Part shown: positions 1,353 through 9,024 of the stretch, piece by piece
How the letters are laid out: each line of letters starts with the position of its first letter
Position numbering within the stretch: the first letter of the stretch is position 1
Source: an uncultured bacterium
GTDB taxonomy: Bacteria; Hydrogenedentota; Hydrogenedentia; Hydrogenedentales; CAILVY01
Reading direction: 5' to 3'
Length of the DNA stretch: 9,113 bases
NCBI GenBank assembly: GCA_937951485.1
Contig: CALEDJ010000044.1
Location: 1 to 9,113, forward strand
Translations under genes and position numbers: made by a program
Notes under the pieces: generated by a model
What the model was told of the DNA's origin: nothing
What the model saw: only the letters and a program-made list of their open reading frames with translations
Database searches by the model: none

Positions 1353-1784
1353 TCAGCGAACCTTTTTGATTTCAACGTCGCCGGCAAAGATGCGCTCGCC
1401 GATGATGTCGCAGGCCACTTCGTTCTTCTTTCCCTGGAACTCCACCGACGCAATCAATTTTGCGCCCTCCACCCGCCAGTTGCCTGTCAGGGTGTCCGTG
1501 CCGATCATCTGGCGCGCGATGGGCGCGAACATCGCGGGCACGGTGGCCACGGCCTGCCCGCCGGAATTCAGCGTGATCGTGACGGCCACCGGCAATTCCT
1601 TGGTCTTGACTTCCCATGCGGTGCCGACGAGGTTGGTCGCATTCCACTTGGGCGGCTCCGGGGGCGGCTTTTGCACCGGCTGCGGCGACGCGCCGCCCAT
1701 GCCACCCGCCAGTTGGCCCGCAATCGGCACAATGACCAACACCGCCAACACGACGCCGAACCCAATCAGCAGTTTCTTGTTCAC
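1353..1784 (-). CDS. Small membrane-anchored protein with C-terminal beta domain (paralogue A)
   Basis: This gene encodes 143 residues of unknown function. It begins with NKKLLIGF and a hydrophobic helix to about residue 27, followed by a short Gly/Pro-rich linker (28-46) and a strand-rich domain (48-143). Conserved blocks shared with the downstream paralogue are LVGTAWEV, GGQAVATVP, LTGNWRVEG and VACDIIG, including the only cysteine (Cys125). I chose the GTG at 1784-1782: GAGGAGA (1800-1794) lies 9 bases upstream, the resulting N-terminus matches the paralogue residue for residue in its first four positions, and longer in-frame readings run into the palindromic repeat. The gene precedes paralogue B by 102 bases on the same strand, so co-transcription is plausible. 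Compared with B the linker is much shorter and the loop between the second and third blocks is about 9 residues longer. Periplasmic exposure is inferred from the anchor; the role is unknown. Confidence 0.8.
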   Translation of the reverse strand: MNKKLLIGFGVVLAVLVIVPIAGQLAGGMGGASPQPVQKPPPEPPKWNATNLVGTAWEVKTKELPVAVTITLNSGGQAVATVPAMFAPIARQMIGTDTLTGNWRVEGAKLIASVEFQGKKNEVACDIIGERIFAGDVEIKKVR

Positions 1785-1894: not shown

Positions 1895-2016
1895 CAACCC
1901 CGGGCATTGGCGAAATGGGCGTTTCGGACCTCAGTTCCGTCAAGAGTCCCAGACATTTCGTGTTCTTAAACGCAAAAACAGTCCATTTCGCAAATGCCTC
2001 AACCCCGGGCATTGGC
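1895..2016. repeat. Palindromic intergenic element bounded by 17-base direct repeats
   Basis: The 17-mer CAACCCCGGGCATTGGC occurs exactly at 1895-1911 and again at 2000-2016. Overlapping and inside these copies is an inverted repeat: 1903-1918 and 1983-1998 are complementary at 15 of 16 positions. A second inverted pair, GCGTTT (1919-1924) with AAACGC (1968-1973), continues the stem inward across a 9-base bulge. A transcript of either strand could therefore fold into one long hairpin of about 96 bases. The element sits 15 bases beyond the hydrolase stop codon, between that gene and the small-protein pair. It encodes no protein I can support. It resembles a MITE or REP-like dispersed repeat, and it could also end hydrolase transcription, but it lacks a clear T-tract. 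Copy number elsewhere cannot be judged from this window. Confidence 0.7.
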
Positions 2017-2031
2017 CAACGGAACGATCCG

Positions 2032-2994
2032 TCAGCCGTTTCGCTTCAGGAACTCGATAAGAATGGGGTTGACGATATCCGGAACCTCGTAGTTGACCGT
2101 GTGACAGGCCCCGGCGACGGCGTGAAACTCGATGTGGGGTATGGCTTGAATGACTTGCGCATGATGGGCGTATGGCACCACATGGTCATGATCGCCCCAG
2201 ATGAGAAGGCCGGGATGCGGTTTCTGTCCGGCGCGCTCATATACCGGACGGAGCGTAAGCAGCGGATTGTGGCGCAGCGTGGACAGAAGCGCGCGCTTGT
2301 AGCCTTTGTACCGCATGGGTTCGGTGTAGAGCGCGACAAAGGCGGCGGCTTCGTCGGGATTACTCTGAAAAGGTTGCGCGATGTTGCGGATCAGAGTATG
2401 GTCGCCCATGAGTTTCAGCAGCCATTCGCCGAAGAGGGGCCATTGCACCGCGCGGTAACGCAGCGGCACATCCACAGGGAAACCCGCCGGCGCAATGAGC
2501 GCGTAGCGCCGCACACGCTCCGGATGCCGGTCGAGAAAGTGCATGGCGATCGCCCCGCCCATGGACAGCCCCACGAGATCCACCGGCCCGACCGCACCGA
2601 ACGCACCGAGCAGTTCAACGAGTTGCCGGTCAAAGAGGTCTGCGTCGTAGCGGATACGGGGACGGTCCGAATAGCCGCGTCCATAGAGGTCATAGCGCAG
2701 CACCCGGAGACCCGCGTCCGCCAACGCGTTTATCTGTCGGTCCCAGATGAACGCCCCCCCGGAAAAACCGTGCACCAGCACGACCACCGGCCCGTCTTCC
2801 GGCCCGGCCCATTCATAGTGCGTGACGCCATCGGACAGCCGGATGAAATGGCAGTCAGGCATTTTGGCGCGCAGCGCATCATCGAGCACAAGCGTCTCCA
2901 TATCCCCCACGACAAAGGGATACGCCCCCGCCACCGCCAGCAGCACGACGATCGCCGCCGCCATCCCGATCAGAATCTTCCCGCGCCCGCTCAT
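2032..2994 (-). CDS. Membrane-anchored alpha/beta-fold hydrolase
   Basis: This gene encodes 320 residues. An N-terminal hydrophobic segment (about 7-29) follows a short basic start and would anchor the enzyme in the inner membrane with the catalytic domain outside, or act as a signal peptide. The rest is a complete alpha/beta hydrolase of the fold-1 type: the oxyanion HGFSGG (75-80), the DLYGRGYSDRP loop (102-112), the nucleophile elbow GLSMGG with Ser144, the acid Asp270 in WGDHD, and His298 in the segment GACHTVNYE. The catalytic triad is intact. A lid region is likely at about residues 172-240. Such enzymes cleave esters, lactones or C-C bonds; the substrate cannot be told from sequence, though the loop motifs recall monoglyceride lipase and meta-cleavage product hydrolase relatives. 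The ATG start at 2994 has GGGGG about 5 bases upstream, and an extended -10 promoter lies close by. The palindromic element follows the stop codon. Confidence 0.9.
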   Translation of the reverse strand: MSGRGKILIGMAAAIVVLLAVAGAYPFVVGDMETLVLDDALRAKMPDCHFIRLSDGVTHYEWAGPEDGPVVVLVHGFSGGAFIWDRQINALADAGLRVLRYDLYGRGYSDRPRIRYDADLFDRQLVELLGAFGAVGPVDLVGLSMGGAIAMHFLDRHPERVRRYALIAPAGFPVDVPLRYRAVQWPLFGEWLLKLMGDHTLIRNIAQPFQSNPDEAAAFVALYTEPMRYKGYKRALLSTLRHNPLLTLRPVYERAGQKPHPGLLIWGDHDHVVPYAHHAQVIQAIPHIEFHAVAGACHTVNYEVPDIVNPILIEFLKRNG

Positions 2995-3023
2995 GATTTC
3001 CCCCGTGTTTTCGGTTGTGATGC

Positions 3024-4956: not shown

Positions 4957-7900
4957 ATGGATACGACAAAAACAACCGAAAAGCGGCCGCGCTGGCGGCG
5001 ATGGGCAGTCGTGGCACTGGCGGTGGTGGTGCTGGTGGCCGGCGGCTGGCAGGGCGTGAAATGGATCGTCCGGGTGGATCGCTACCTGCCGATGATCACC
5101 GGGCTGGTGGAACGATACACAGGCTTGCCGGCGACGGTGGGCGGCGCAACGCTGCGGCTTTTGCCGTCGCCCCGCCTGACGGCGCGGGACATCGCAGTGG
5201 GCGCGGGCGATTTCCAGGCGACGGCGGCGCGGGCGGACGTGCAGGTGGATGTCTTCGGCCTGTTGCGGCGGCGGGTGGATGTGACCGGGGTGCAGTTGCG
5301 GGACGTGACGGTCACGCTGCCGGACAGCAACGACGCACTGCTGGAACGCATCAACGCGGTGCGCGAACACTTTGCCGGAAAAACCGACGGCGAGGACGCC
5401 GAAACGCCGGGACGTGCGTCCAGGGGCGAACGGGATGCGCTGCGTGTTGCGGGCTTCGCCATTCGGGTGGCCGAGGTGCGCGCGCGCGATGTGACGGTGC
5501 GTCGGGGCGACGTGGTGTGGCTGCGCGGCAACGCAATGGCGCGCGATGTTCTCGCGTCACGGATTCCGGCGGCGGTGGAAGCGGCGCTTCCGTTCCTGGG
5601 GGGCGACGCGGCGCTGACCGCGGGGGTGACGACGGACCTTTCGGGGGCATCGCCGCGCATTGACGGCACGGCATCCATCCGACAACTGGATATCGAGGAT
5701 TTGGCGGGGGACCCGCGTATCCCGCACACGCGGATCACGCTCGACGCCAAGGTCCAGGGCGCTGTGACCGAAGAAATCACCGTGGAACTCTCCGGCGATA
5801 TGCGCACGGCGGTTTCGGATGCGTTTTCCGGGCGCATCGGCGCGATGGCCGCGTACCGCGACGGCGTGCTGACGGTGCGCGACGCGCGCCTGGATTCCGC
5901 GGGACTGGAAGCGCTGGCCGAAGCGGAAATCGCGGCGGACGCCATGACGTTCCGCGTGCCCAAGGCCACCGCGTCCGGGGAAGGGTTGCAGGTCCTGCTG
6001 GCGATGATTCCGATGGCAGGCATGCGCCTCGTTCCCCGCTCGGACGCCCGCTTCGCCATCATGGATTTTCATATCGGCGCGCTGCCGTCGGGGACGCTGG
6101 GGGTGCTTTCGGGCGACATCGCGCTGGACGGGATAGACCTCACGCTGGCGGACGGTACTGCGGCGTTTCCCGCCATTGCGGGGCGCATCGGGGTAAAGGA
6201 CAACGCATTTCATATTCAGTCCCTGAAAAGCGAGGGCTTCGAGATTCGCGGCGCGATCAGCCCCGACCTCGACACCTTGACGGCGGCGGTGAAACTTTCG
6301 GGCGAGGCGGAACTCAGCCGCGAGAAACTCGCCATGTTCCTCCCGCTGGACAGCGTGAAGCGTCTGATCGGCGGCGTCACGCTCAAACGTCTCAGCGGTG
6401 TCTTCGGGCCGGGGCGGCCCATGCCGCCGGAGGATTTGGTCGCGGAGGCGACCCTACGAAACGTATCCGCCGCAATCATCCTGCCGGACCGGGCCGCGCC
6501 TTTGGAAATTGAGCAATTGCAGGGCGGGGTCGCGTTTCGCGAGGGCGCGGTGCATCTGGAAGGACTCAAGGCGCAAGGCATCGGCGTCAATGGAAAACTG
6601 CGCCCGGACCTCAAGACCGGCGCGGTGGCGGTGGACCTGTCGGCGGACCTCGATCTCGCCGCAGCGCTGGTGCAGGCCTTTCTGCCGGAGAATATGGTTT
6701 CGGGCGTAGCGGGCACGTTGTCCTGCAAGCGCATCGCCGCGACGATCGTCCCCGGCGAGGGGCTTCCGAAGGATTTGGCCATCGAAGGCGCAGTGCGCGA
6801 TGGGCGCGCGACCGTGCAAACCCCGGCATTCACCGACCGTCTTTCCGGCATTGCCGCCACGTTCACCAGCGATTTGCAGCGCGTCAGGGCGAAAATCAGC
6901 GCAACCTCCGAAACGACGGGCGTGTTGCAGTTTGACGGACAATACGTGCTGGCCGATCAATCGGTGCGCGGGGTCGTGATCGCCGACATCGCGCGCGCCG
7001 CGAAGCCCTTCCTGCCCGAAGGCGCGGCGACGGAATACGGCCTGCCGGTGCTGTCCGTCTATGGCGCCTCCAGTTTCGACGTGGAAGTGCGGCTGCCGCA
7101 GCCCGGCGCGCCGGAGGGATTTGTCCATGCCGTCCGACAGGGTTCGCCCGCGCTCGACGCGCGCGTCAATCTTGCGCTGAAGGATAATGCCATCGCCCCT
7201 GCGACCGTGCAGGCCACAGCGTCCTTCCCGACGGCGGCGCTGGCCAAGGCCCTGCCCGCACAGGTGATCGCGGAGGGCCCGGTGAATGTCGAGGCGTCGG
7301 TGGATTTCCCGGCCCAGTCGTTCCAGGCCGTCGCGGCGCTGAACGATGCGGTGGTGCGCATAGGTGATTACTTGCACAAACGCAAGGGCGTGCCGTTGCA
7401 GGTGCAGGCGCGCGGGGGGGCGCCCCAGAAGCCCTTTGCGCCGCAGTCCGTGCGAATCGGCATCAATGGTGAACAGATTGACGTGGACTTGCGCGGCGAC
7501 GCGCCCCGGATTCCGGAATTGGACCTTAATTTGCAGCCCTTGTCGGCGTTGTTGGTGGAAGGCGCGTCCGCGCGGGGCCGCGTGCGCGGTTCGGTGGACC
7601 TCACCCCGATGACGGTTTCCCTGCAACTGGAAAACGTGGGCTTGACGCTGTCGCCGGAAGTGGCCGTTGACAATGTGACCGGTCTGGTGTCGTACCGTCC
7701 CGATGCGATTCAACTCGACCATGTTCACATCCGGGGCGCGGACAGCGACTGCACCATCAACGCGGTCACACGCGATGGCATGTGGCACGCCACCGTGGAA
7801 GGCCCGAAACTCAACCTGAACGCCGTGGAGGCGATGTACCAGGCGGTGACGACCATGATGGCGGACAAGAACGGCGCCGGAACCGTTTCGCCGCGGCCCC

Positions 7901-9024
7901 GCGATGCGCCCGGCGAAATGACGGTATCCGCGCCCGGCGGCATGCCGGGCAAGGCCCGGGTGCAATTGCAGTCGGTCTATTACCGGCGAGGCCGGATGGA
8001 CGACGTGCGCGCTGACATTGATGTGACGCCCGAAGGCGTCAGAATCAGCAACCTCACGTTCAAACCCTATGCCGGCGATGTGACGGGGCGGGCCGAAATG
8101 ATTTACGGCAAGGACGGCGCGCCCGCCACCATCGTGACGAATCTGAAGTTGAACGCGATGGACTTGCGCTTTCTCGATGATGTCACCTTCGAGCAACCGC
8201 GCGGCATCACCGGTCTGGCAACCGGCGTGGTGGACATGCGTTTCCCCGCCGCCAGCGGCATGCCGCTGTACAGGGGACTTAACGGGACGATAGACATTAC
8301 GGCGGAAAAGGGCGGGTTGGGAAAACTGGGATACGCCACCAAAATCCTCGCCGTGCTGCGCACCACCGAAATCCTGCGGCTGAGCGTTCCCTCGCTGCGC
8401 GATGAAGGGTTGACCTTTCGTTCGGCCAAACTGAAACTCGACATGACCAATGGAACGATAAGGGTGCATGACGTTGCGTTAACCGAAAAGTCTTATGCCC
8501 TGGATGGGGCCGGGCTGGTGAACCTGCCCGGCGAAAGCATGGAGGTGGACCTCGGTTTCAATGTCCTGGAATCCGTCACGGGCATCGTGGACCGTGTGCC
8601 GCTGGTGGGCGACGCTGTGGGGATGCTGCGCGAAGGCATGGGGTTTCGCATCCGTATGAGGGGTTCTCCTTTTGACCCCAACGTTCGGCTGGACGCCGGG
8701 GTCATCCCCATCCGCAAGGATGAACGCCGCGAGGGCGTTGTCGGCACGGTGGTGGACGGCGTCGGCACGGTCGTGGAGGGCGTCACATCCCCCGTAGTGG
8801 GCGGTGTGACCGGCGTGGTCGGCGGCGTCGTAGGCGGGGTCGTGGGTGGCGTGCGGGGCGTGCTTGGTCGCGACCGCCGCGGCGGAAATGCCGCCGAGAA
8901 AGCCCCCGCAGAAGGGGAAGCACCGCCCGAGGGAGTGGAAGAAACGCCCGATGAATCCGTCTTGGAGGAAGAACCCGCGCCGACACCGCCCGCAGAATCC
9001 GAGCCCGCGCCTGAATCGCCATAA
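4957..9024 (+). CDS. AsmA-like envelope protein (YhdP/TamB-type) with glycine-zipper and acidic tail
   Basis: This gene encodes 1355 residues. After a basic N-terminus, one transmembrane helix (about 16-32) anchors the protein in the inner membrane. Next comes an AsmA-type start (residues 56-82, with the LRLLPSPRLTARDIAVG block) and then a very long region of alternating strand-like segments to about residue 960, the sort that builds the beta-groove of bridge-like lipid transfer proteins. A Pro/Gly linker (about 968-1000) precedes an AsmA-like C-terminal module (about 1005-1247) ending in VDRVPLVGDAVGML and RGSPFDPNVRL. Relatives YhdP, TamB and YdbH move phospholipids between inner and outer membrane; the same role is inferred here. 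Its length is close to YhdP and TamB (about 1260). The unusual part is the tail: a Gly/Val segment (1261-1304) with 4-residue glycine spacing, then an acidic Pro-rich end (1309-1355). The gene ends with tandem stops TAA TAG. The start has no Shine-Dalgarno match; the next ATG would lose the anchor. Confidence 0.9.
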   Translation: MDTTKTTEKRPRWRRWAVVALAVVVLVAGGWQGVKWIVRVDRYLPMITGLVERYTGLPATVGGATLRLLPSPRLTARDIAVGAGDFQATAARADVQVDVFGLLRRRVDVTGVQLRDVTVTLPDSNDALLERINAVREHFAGKTDGEDAETPGRASRGERDALRVAGFAIRVAEVRARDVTVRRGDVVWLRGNAMARDVLASRIPAAVEAALPFLGGDAALTAGVTTDLSGASPRIDGTASIRQLDIEDLAGDPRIPHTRITLDAKVQGAVTEEITVELSGDMRTAVSDAFSGRIGAMAAYRDGVLTVRDARLDSAGLEALAEAEIAADAMTFRVPKATASGEGLQVLLAMIPMAGMRLVPRSDARFAIMDFHIGALPSGTLGVLSGDIALDGIDLTLADGTAAFPAIAGRIGVKDNAFHIQSLKSEGFEIRGAISPDLDTLTAAVKLSGEAELSREKLAMFLPLDSVKRLIGGVTLKRLSGVFGPGRPMPPEDLVAEATLRNVSAAIILPDRAAPLEIEQLQGGVAFREGAVHLEGLKAQGIGVNGKLRPDLKTGAVAVDLSADLDLAAALVQAFLPENMVSGVAGTLSCKRIAATIVPGEGLPKDLAIEGAVRDGRATVQTPAFTDRLSGIAATFTSDLQRVRAKISATSETTGVLQFDGQYVLADQSVRGVVIADIARAAKPFLPEGAATEYGLPVLSVYGASSFDVEVRLPQPGAPEGFVHAVRQGSPALDARVNLALKDNAIAPATVQATASFPTAALAKALPAQVIAEGPVNVEASVDFPAQSFQAVAALNDAVVRIGDYLHKRKGVPLQVQARGGAPQKPFAPQSVRIGINGEQIDVDLRGDAPRIPELDLNLQPLSALLVEGASARGRVRGSVDLTPMTVSLQLENVGLTLSPEVAVDNVTGLVSYRPDAIQLDHVHIRGADSDCTINAVTRDGMWHATVEGPKLNLNAVEAMYQAVTTMMADKNGAGTVSPRPRDAPGEMTVSAPGGMPGKARVQLQSVYYRRGRMDDVRADIDVTPEGVRISNLTFKPYAGDVTGRAEMIYGKDGAPATIVTNLKLNAMDLRFLDDVTFEQPRGITGLATGVVDMRFPAASGMPLYRGLNGTIDITAEKGGLGKLGYATKILAVLRTTEILRLSVPSLRDEGLTFRSAKLKLDMTNGTIRVHDVALTEKSYALDGAGLVNLPGESMEVDLGFNVLESVTGIVDRVPLVGDAVGMLREGMGFRIRMRGSPFDPNVRLDAGVIPIRKDERREGVVGTVVDGVGTVVEGVTSPVVGGVTGVVGGVVGGVVGGVRGVLGRDRRGGNAAEKAPAEGEAPPEGVEETPDESVLEEEPAPTPPAESEPAPESP

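Follow-up and report, generated by a model that had tools for sequence, protein, structure and literature searches.

Positions 1901-2000 of the window, by which we mean the whole analysed stretch of 9,113 nucleotides, are very probably a copy of a non-autonomous MITE, which is presumably mobilised in trans and is flanked by a 5-bp target-site duplication. The combination of terminal inverted repeats, a duplication and dispersed copies, without covariation, a terminator or conservation linked to the neighbouring hydrolase gene, favours a MITE over a structured RNA, a REP or a terminator. Side-by-side comparison of the copies and their flanks showed that the 100-bp element runs from GA-GGCATTTGCG to CGCAAATGCC-TC and has 18-bp terminal inverted repeats (consensus GAGGCATTTGCGAAATGG), which are conserved across 57 copies. 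The copy in the window lies in consensus orientation on the + strand and covers model positions 1-100 of the covariance model (109.2 bits, E 3e-25; aligned with 56 other copies). According to the copy alignment, the left repeat CGGGCATTGGCGAAATGG (1901-1918, + strand) carries three changes against the consensus, and the right repeat (1983-2000, - strand) is identical to it. The inner part with the GCGTTT / AAACGC pair (1919-1973, + strand) is conserved in sequence; its pairing is retained in 75.7% of cells and shows no covariation.

The first-pass annotation had described this region as a single palindromic unit of 122 bases (1895-2016) framed by direct repeats. All the repeats it listed are present in the sequence: the exact 17-mer CAACCCCGGGCATTGGC occurs at 1895-1911 and 2000-2016 and extends to 20 bases at 95%, 15 of 16 positions match in the inverted repeat 1903-1918 / 1983-1998, and the nested inner pair is found at 1919-1924 and 1968-1973. 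The proposed boundaries did not hold, since the comparison of copies places the element at 1901-2000 with the 5-bp duplications outside. By simple arithmetic on approximately 1.8 million position pairs within 200 b, a window of this size should contain by chance approximately 1e-4 exact repeats of 17 bases and 0.02 inverted repeats of this kind. The palindrome at 1901-2000 represents more than chance, because the same unit recurs at at least 60 other loci of the genome.

In the own genome (4.55 Mb, 77 contigs), a query with positions 1860-2040 found 39 further places, which match approximately the same 98 bases over most of their length, and the covariance model, which was built from 57 copies, detected the 100-bp class at 61 or more places. 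Furthermore, end-like sites with up to three mismatches number 419 (213 + 206) compared to 83 (45 + 38) for the reversed pattern, from which we infer that there is room for well over 100 copies. A sister class of approximately 111 bp shares the ends but has a different interior; both classes are shorter than 500 bp and contain no open reading frame of their own. At one locus (L055), a 111-bp copy has inserted into a 100-bp copy, with duplication of TTGATG; hence, the two classes moved at different times and with almost the same signature. Of 69 element calls, 66 are intergenic, though gene calls, here a rough home-made approximation, cover approximately 81% of the loci. Pairwise identity among the copies ranges from 61 to 98%, which is consistent with repeated rounds of spread. 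The flanks differ between copies with the exception of three (L059, L070 and L072), which have homologous flanks on both sides, for example GTTGATTCCAAAGGTTACGCCAGTCGGCTGAAATGTT, and where the MITE consequently spread within a larger repeat. Some MITE copies themselves carry insertions of a second repeat family, which is approximately 160 bp long and has the inverted repeats AACCGTTCACGGGG / CCCCGTGAACGGTT (L049:2987-3249; L053, approximately 2850-3000; L054, approximately 60-140).

The length of the target-site duplication was obtained by comparing every left-flank position with every right-flank position in 42 copies. Matches were in excess at exactly five positions (31, 33, 28, 28 and 30, with approximately 11 expected by chance), which form a single diagonal; counted from the GGCAT/ATGCC core, it joins left -7..-3 to right +3..+7. 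One diagonal of five positions just outside GA...TC means a 5-bp duplication. Among 59 copies of approximately 100 bp, 20 have exact 5-bp duplications and 31 match in at least 4 of 5 bases, as against a mean of 1.8 and a maximum of 7 copies with such matches in 2000 shuffles. In the window, this register assigns AACCC at 1896-1900 as the left copy of the duplication, and the same flank comparison gives AACCC at 2001-2005 as the right one. If the element was inserted here, the empty site before insertion is expected to read ...CGTGACAACCCCGGGCATTGGCCAACGG... with a single AACCC. Taken together, of the options offered in the first-pass annotation, the non-autonomous mobile repeat was the right one, as the dispersed copies, the terminal inverted repeats and the duplication show.

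The earlier statement that the 17-mer is not a plain target-site duplication was half right. According to the comparison of the 42 flanks, 5 of the 17 repeated bases are indeed the duplication. The 17-mer is composed of one coincident C, the last base of the element, followed by AACCC and the 11 bases CGGGCATTGGC, which form the right flank (2006-2016, + strand) and equally the first 11 bases of the left end, which is atypical in this copy with its three differences from the consensus left end GAGGCATTTGC. This match between left end and right flank (11 of 12 positions) is unusual, the next best among 138 comparisons being 8 of 12. No general likeness between flanks and element ends was detected across the copies, and a target preference for end-like sequence was not found. 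Probably, the target by chance shared 8 of 11 bases with the element end, after which a conversion, or a template switch between two near-identical 11-mers approximately 105 b apart, would have equalised left end and flank. Such a conversion would have turned the 5-bp duplication into the 17-mer, and conversion or template switch is the simplest account of the 11-base match. For the 17-mer only, it may instead be proposed that a true target duplication of 16-17 bp was made and that the left end was lost on insertion, with the target supplying the first 11 bases. This would also explain why left end and flank agree over 11 bases, but the other copies fit 5 bp, and the target would still need 8 of 11 bases in common with the end, in exact register. 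As this resemblance is needed either way, the longer duplication is no simpler than conversion, and we consider it unlikely.

The hydrolase gene (- strand, 2032-2994) ends 32 b before the element begins, and one alternative is that the element acts as a structured RNA or intrinsic terminator of this gene, with the stem under selection for RNA pairing. The + strand does fold better than shuffled sequences (z -2.48), but the - strand, i.e. the sense of the hydrolase transcript, does not (z -0.13). Across 57 copies, 87% of the stem cells are paired, yet double changes occur as under independent change (9 cells versus 8.5 expected; covariation score 0.092 versus 0.091 after shuffling), which points to inverted repeats that are read by a protein rather than to a maintained RNA fold. 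RNAalifold returned no consensus pairs for the copies, the search of Rfam gave no match to the element, and no terminator-like site, i.e. a G+C-rich hairpin followed by a T run, was found. Moreover, most copies are located between genes in divergent or tandem order and only 6 between convergent genes, which argues against a terminator role, and in relatives, seven hydrolase homologues have no such element at their 3' end. Hence, an RNA or terminator function is highly improbable. Regarding the other genes of the window, 765-1250 and 1353-1784 (both - strand) encode adjoining small paralogous proteins (32% identity, E 3e-15) with an N-terminal hydrophobic stretch, for which no Pfam family match was obtained, and 4957-9024 (+ strand) encodes a large AsmA-like envelope protein of 1355 aa with a YhdP match (PF13116).

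The first-pass annotation had also considered a REP-type repeat, here taken as a REP or BIME moved by a RAYT (Y1) transposase. The element shares with those an intergenic position, the palindromic structure and the multicopy state. REPs are 20-40 nt long, whereas the element is 100 bp long, has true terminal inverted repeats and is flanked by a 5-bp duplication; to our knowledge, Y1 transposases leave no duplication. This assignment is therefore hardly conceivable.

The same ends occur in several Hydrogenedentota. The 16-base end was found with at most one mismatch in 12 of 60 genomes, with tens of sites in G000, G002 and G009, and the named records with these ends belong almost all to Candidatus Hydrogenedentota. 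The Hydrogenedentota relative G002 contains elements of approximately 130 bp with the same ends, many of them with perfect 5-bp duplications. In G009, one end of the elements is altered to GTGCCATTTGCGAAAAGG; four loci (L119, L120, L130 and L154) carry GTGCCATTTGCGAAAAGG on one side and GAGGCATTTGCGAAATGG on the other. Such unlike ends are a possible hint at end-specific binding of a transposase. In a further relative, G047, three contigs end and two begin approximately 140 b inside an end, which is how assemblies behave at a multicopy repeat. The flanks pair across these contigs and give the duplications of two copies, TATGT (C40 with C28) and CTATC (C82 with C97). Judged from these contig sequences, G047 carries a longer element with the same ends and the same duplication length, whose inner sequences next to the two ends are unlike each other. 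The middle of this element is absent from all assemblies searched, and no gene was read from it; as the autonomous partner, it is the best candidate. Three G002 contigs (C265, C249 and C215; L124, L159 and L180) likewise stop 141 b within one identical end, GAGGCATTTGCGAAATAGGTGTCAGCC..., and likely belong to a further long element with these ends. In the plasmids and phages searched, the element had no match; exact 16-mer matches in the inspected viral contigs had no paired end, were located within or close to phage-like genes and are probably due to chance.

The search for paired ends 0.3-4 kb apart at more than 100 loci yielded no partner with a transposase between its ends. In the own genome, no match was obtained to the DDE_Tnp_1, ISAzo13 and Tn3 transposase families, of which the ISAzo13 search likewise matched nothing in control genomes. 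An ISAzo13 gene beside an end (L128) has its own inverted repeats GGCGTTAATAAATAAAGGTA and is a separate insertion, and among the IS1634-like genes of G002, the one with both sides present has other ends, CCCAACTTCCGCAGTTA.

We propose that a longer element sharing these ends provides a DDE-type transposase, which would act in trans on the MITE. The MITE would have been cut or copied out and then inserted by a staggered cut 5 bp apart, the repair of which would have made the AACCC duplication. Against this reading stands that the ends could not be linked to any transposase, with the interior of the longer element in no genome searched, and the extra 11-base match at the 17-mer requires a separate event. 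As a tentative suggestion, with the balance rather against it, the MITEs and the longer element may form an undescribed IS family centred on Hydrogenedentota, with the ends GAGGCATTTGCGAAAT and a 5-bp duplication. The literature searched contained no study on MITEs or transposases in this phylum. With this analysis, a candidate RNA or regulatory element drops out of consideration, and an uncultured phylum gains a well-bounded MITE family, whose copies are ready markers of intergenic insertion history. Moreover, the known ends and duplication length offer a way to find the transposase with long reads.

Among the known systems, TIMEs make a 5-bp duplication as found here, and Tn3 repeats are approximately 38 bp long and begin with GGGG. 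The element also resembles the Tn3-derived miniature TIMEs (PMC4133298) in its small size and inverted repeats but differs in its 18-bp repeats beginning with GA, and no Tn3 transposase was found in four genomes carrying these ends. IS1634 and ISH3 are similar in duplication length (5-6 bp and 4-5 bp, respectively, compared to 5 bp here), whereas their ends begin with C (C-----YT and CRGT) and those of the present element with GA (PMC2266710). Prokaryotic MITEs are shorter than 500 bp, have terminal inverted repeats of 4-30 bp, lie between genes, contain no gene and occur in many copies, with direct repeats flanking the younger ones (PMC10969869). In contrast to them, flank base counts gave no AT-rich preference here, the end and inner sequences are the element's own, and the parent transposase was not found. 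In size, repeat length, flanking direct repeats, intergenic position, lack of genes and copy number the element agrees with them, and it belongs to a lineage-specific MITE family, which is new in its sequence and ordinary in its kind.
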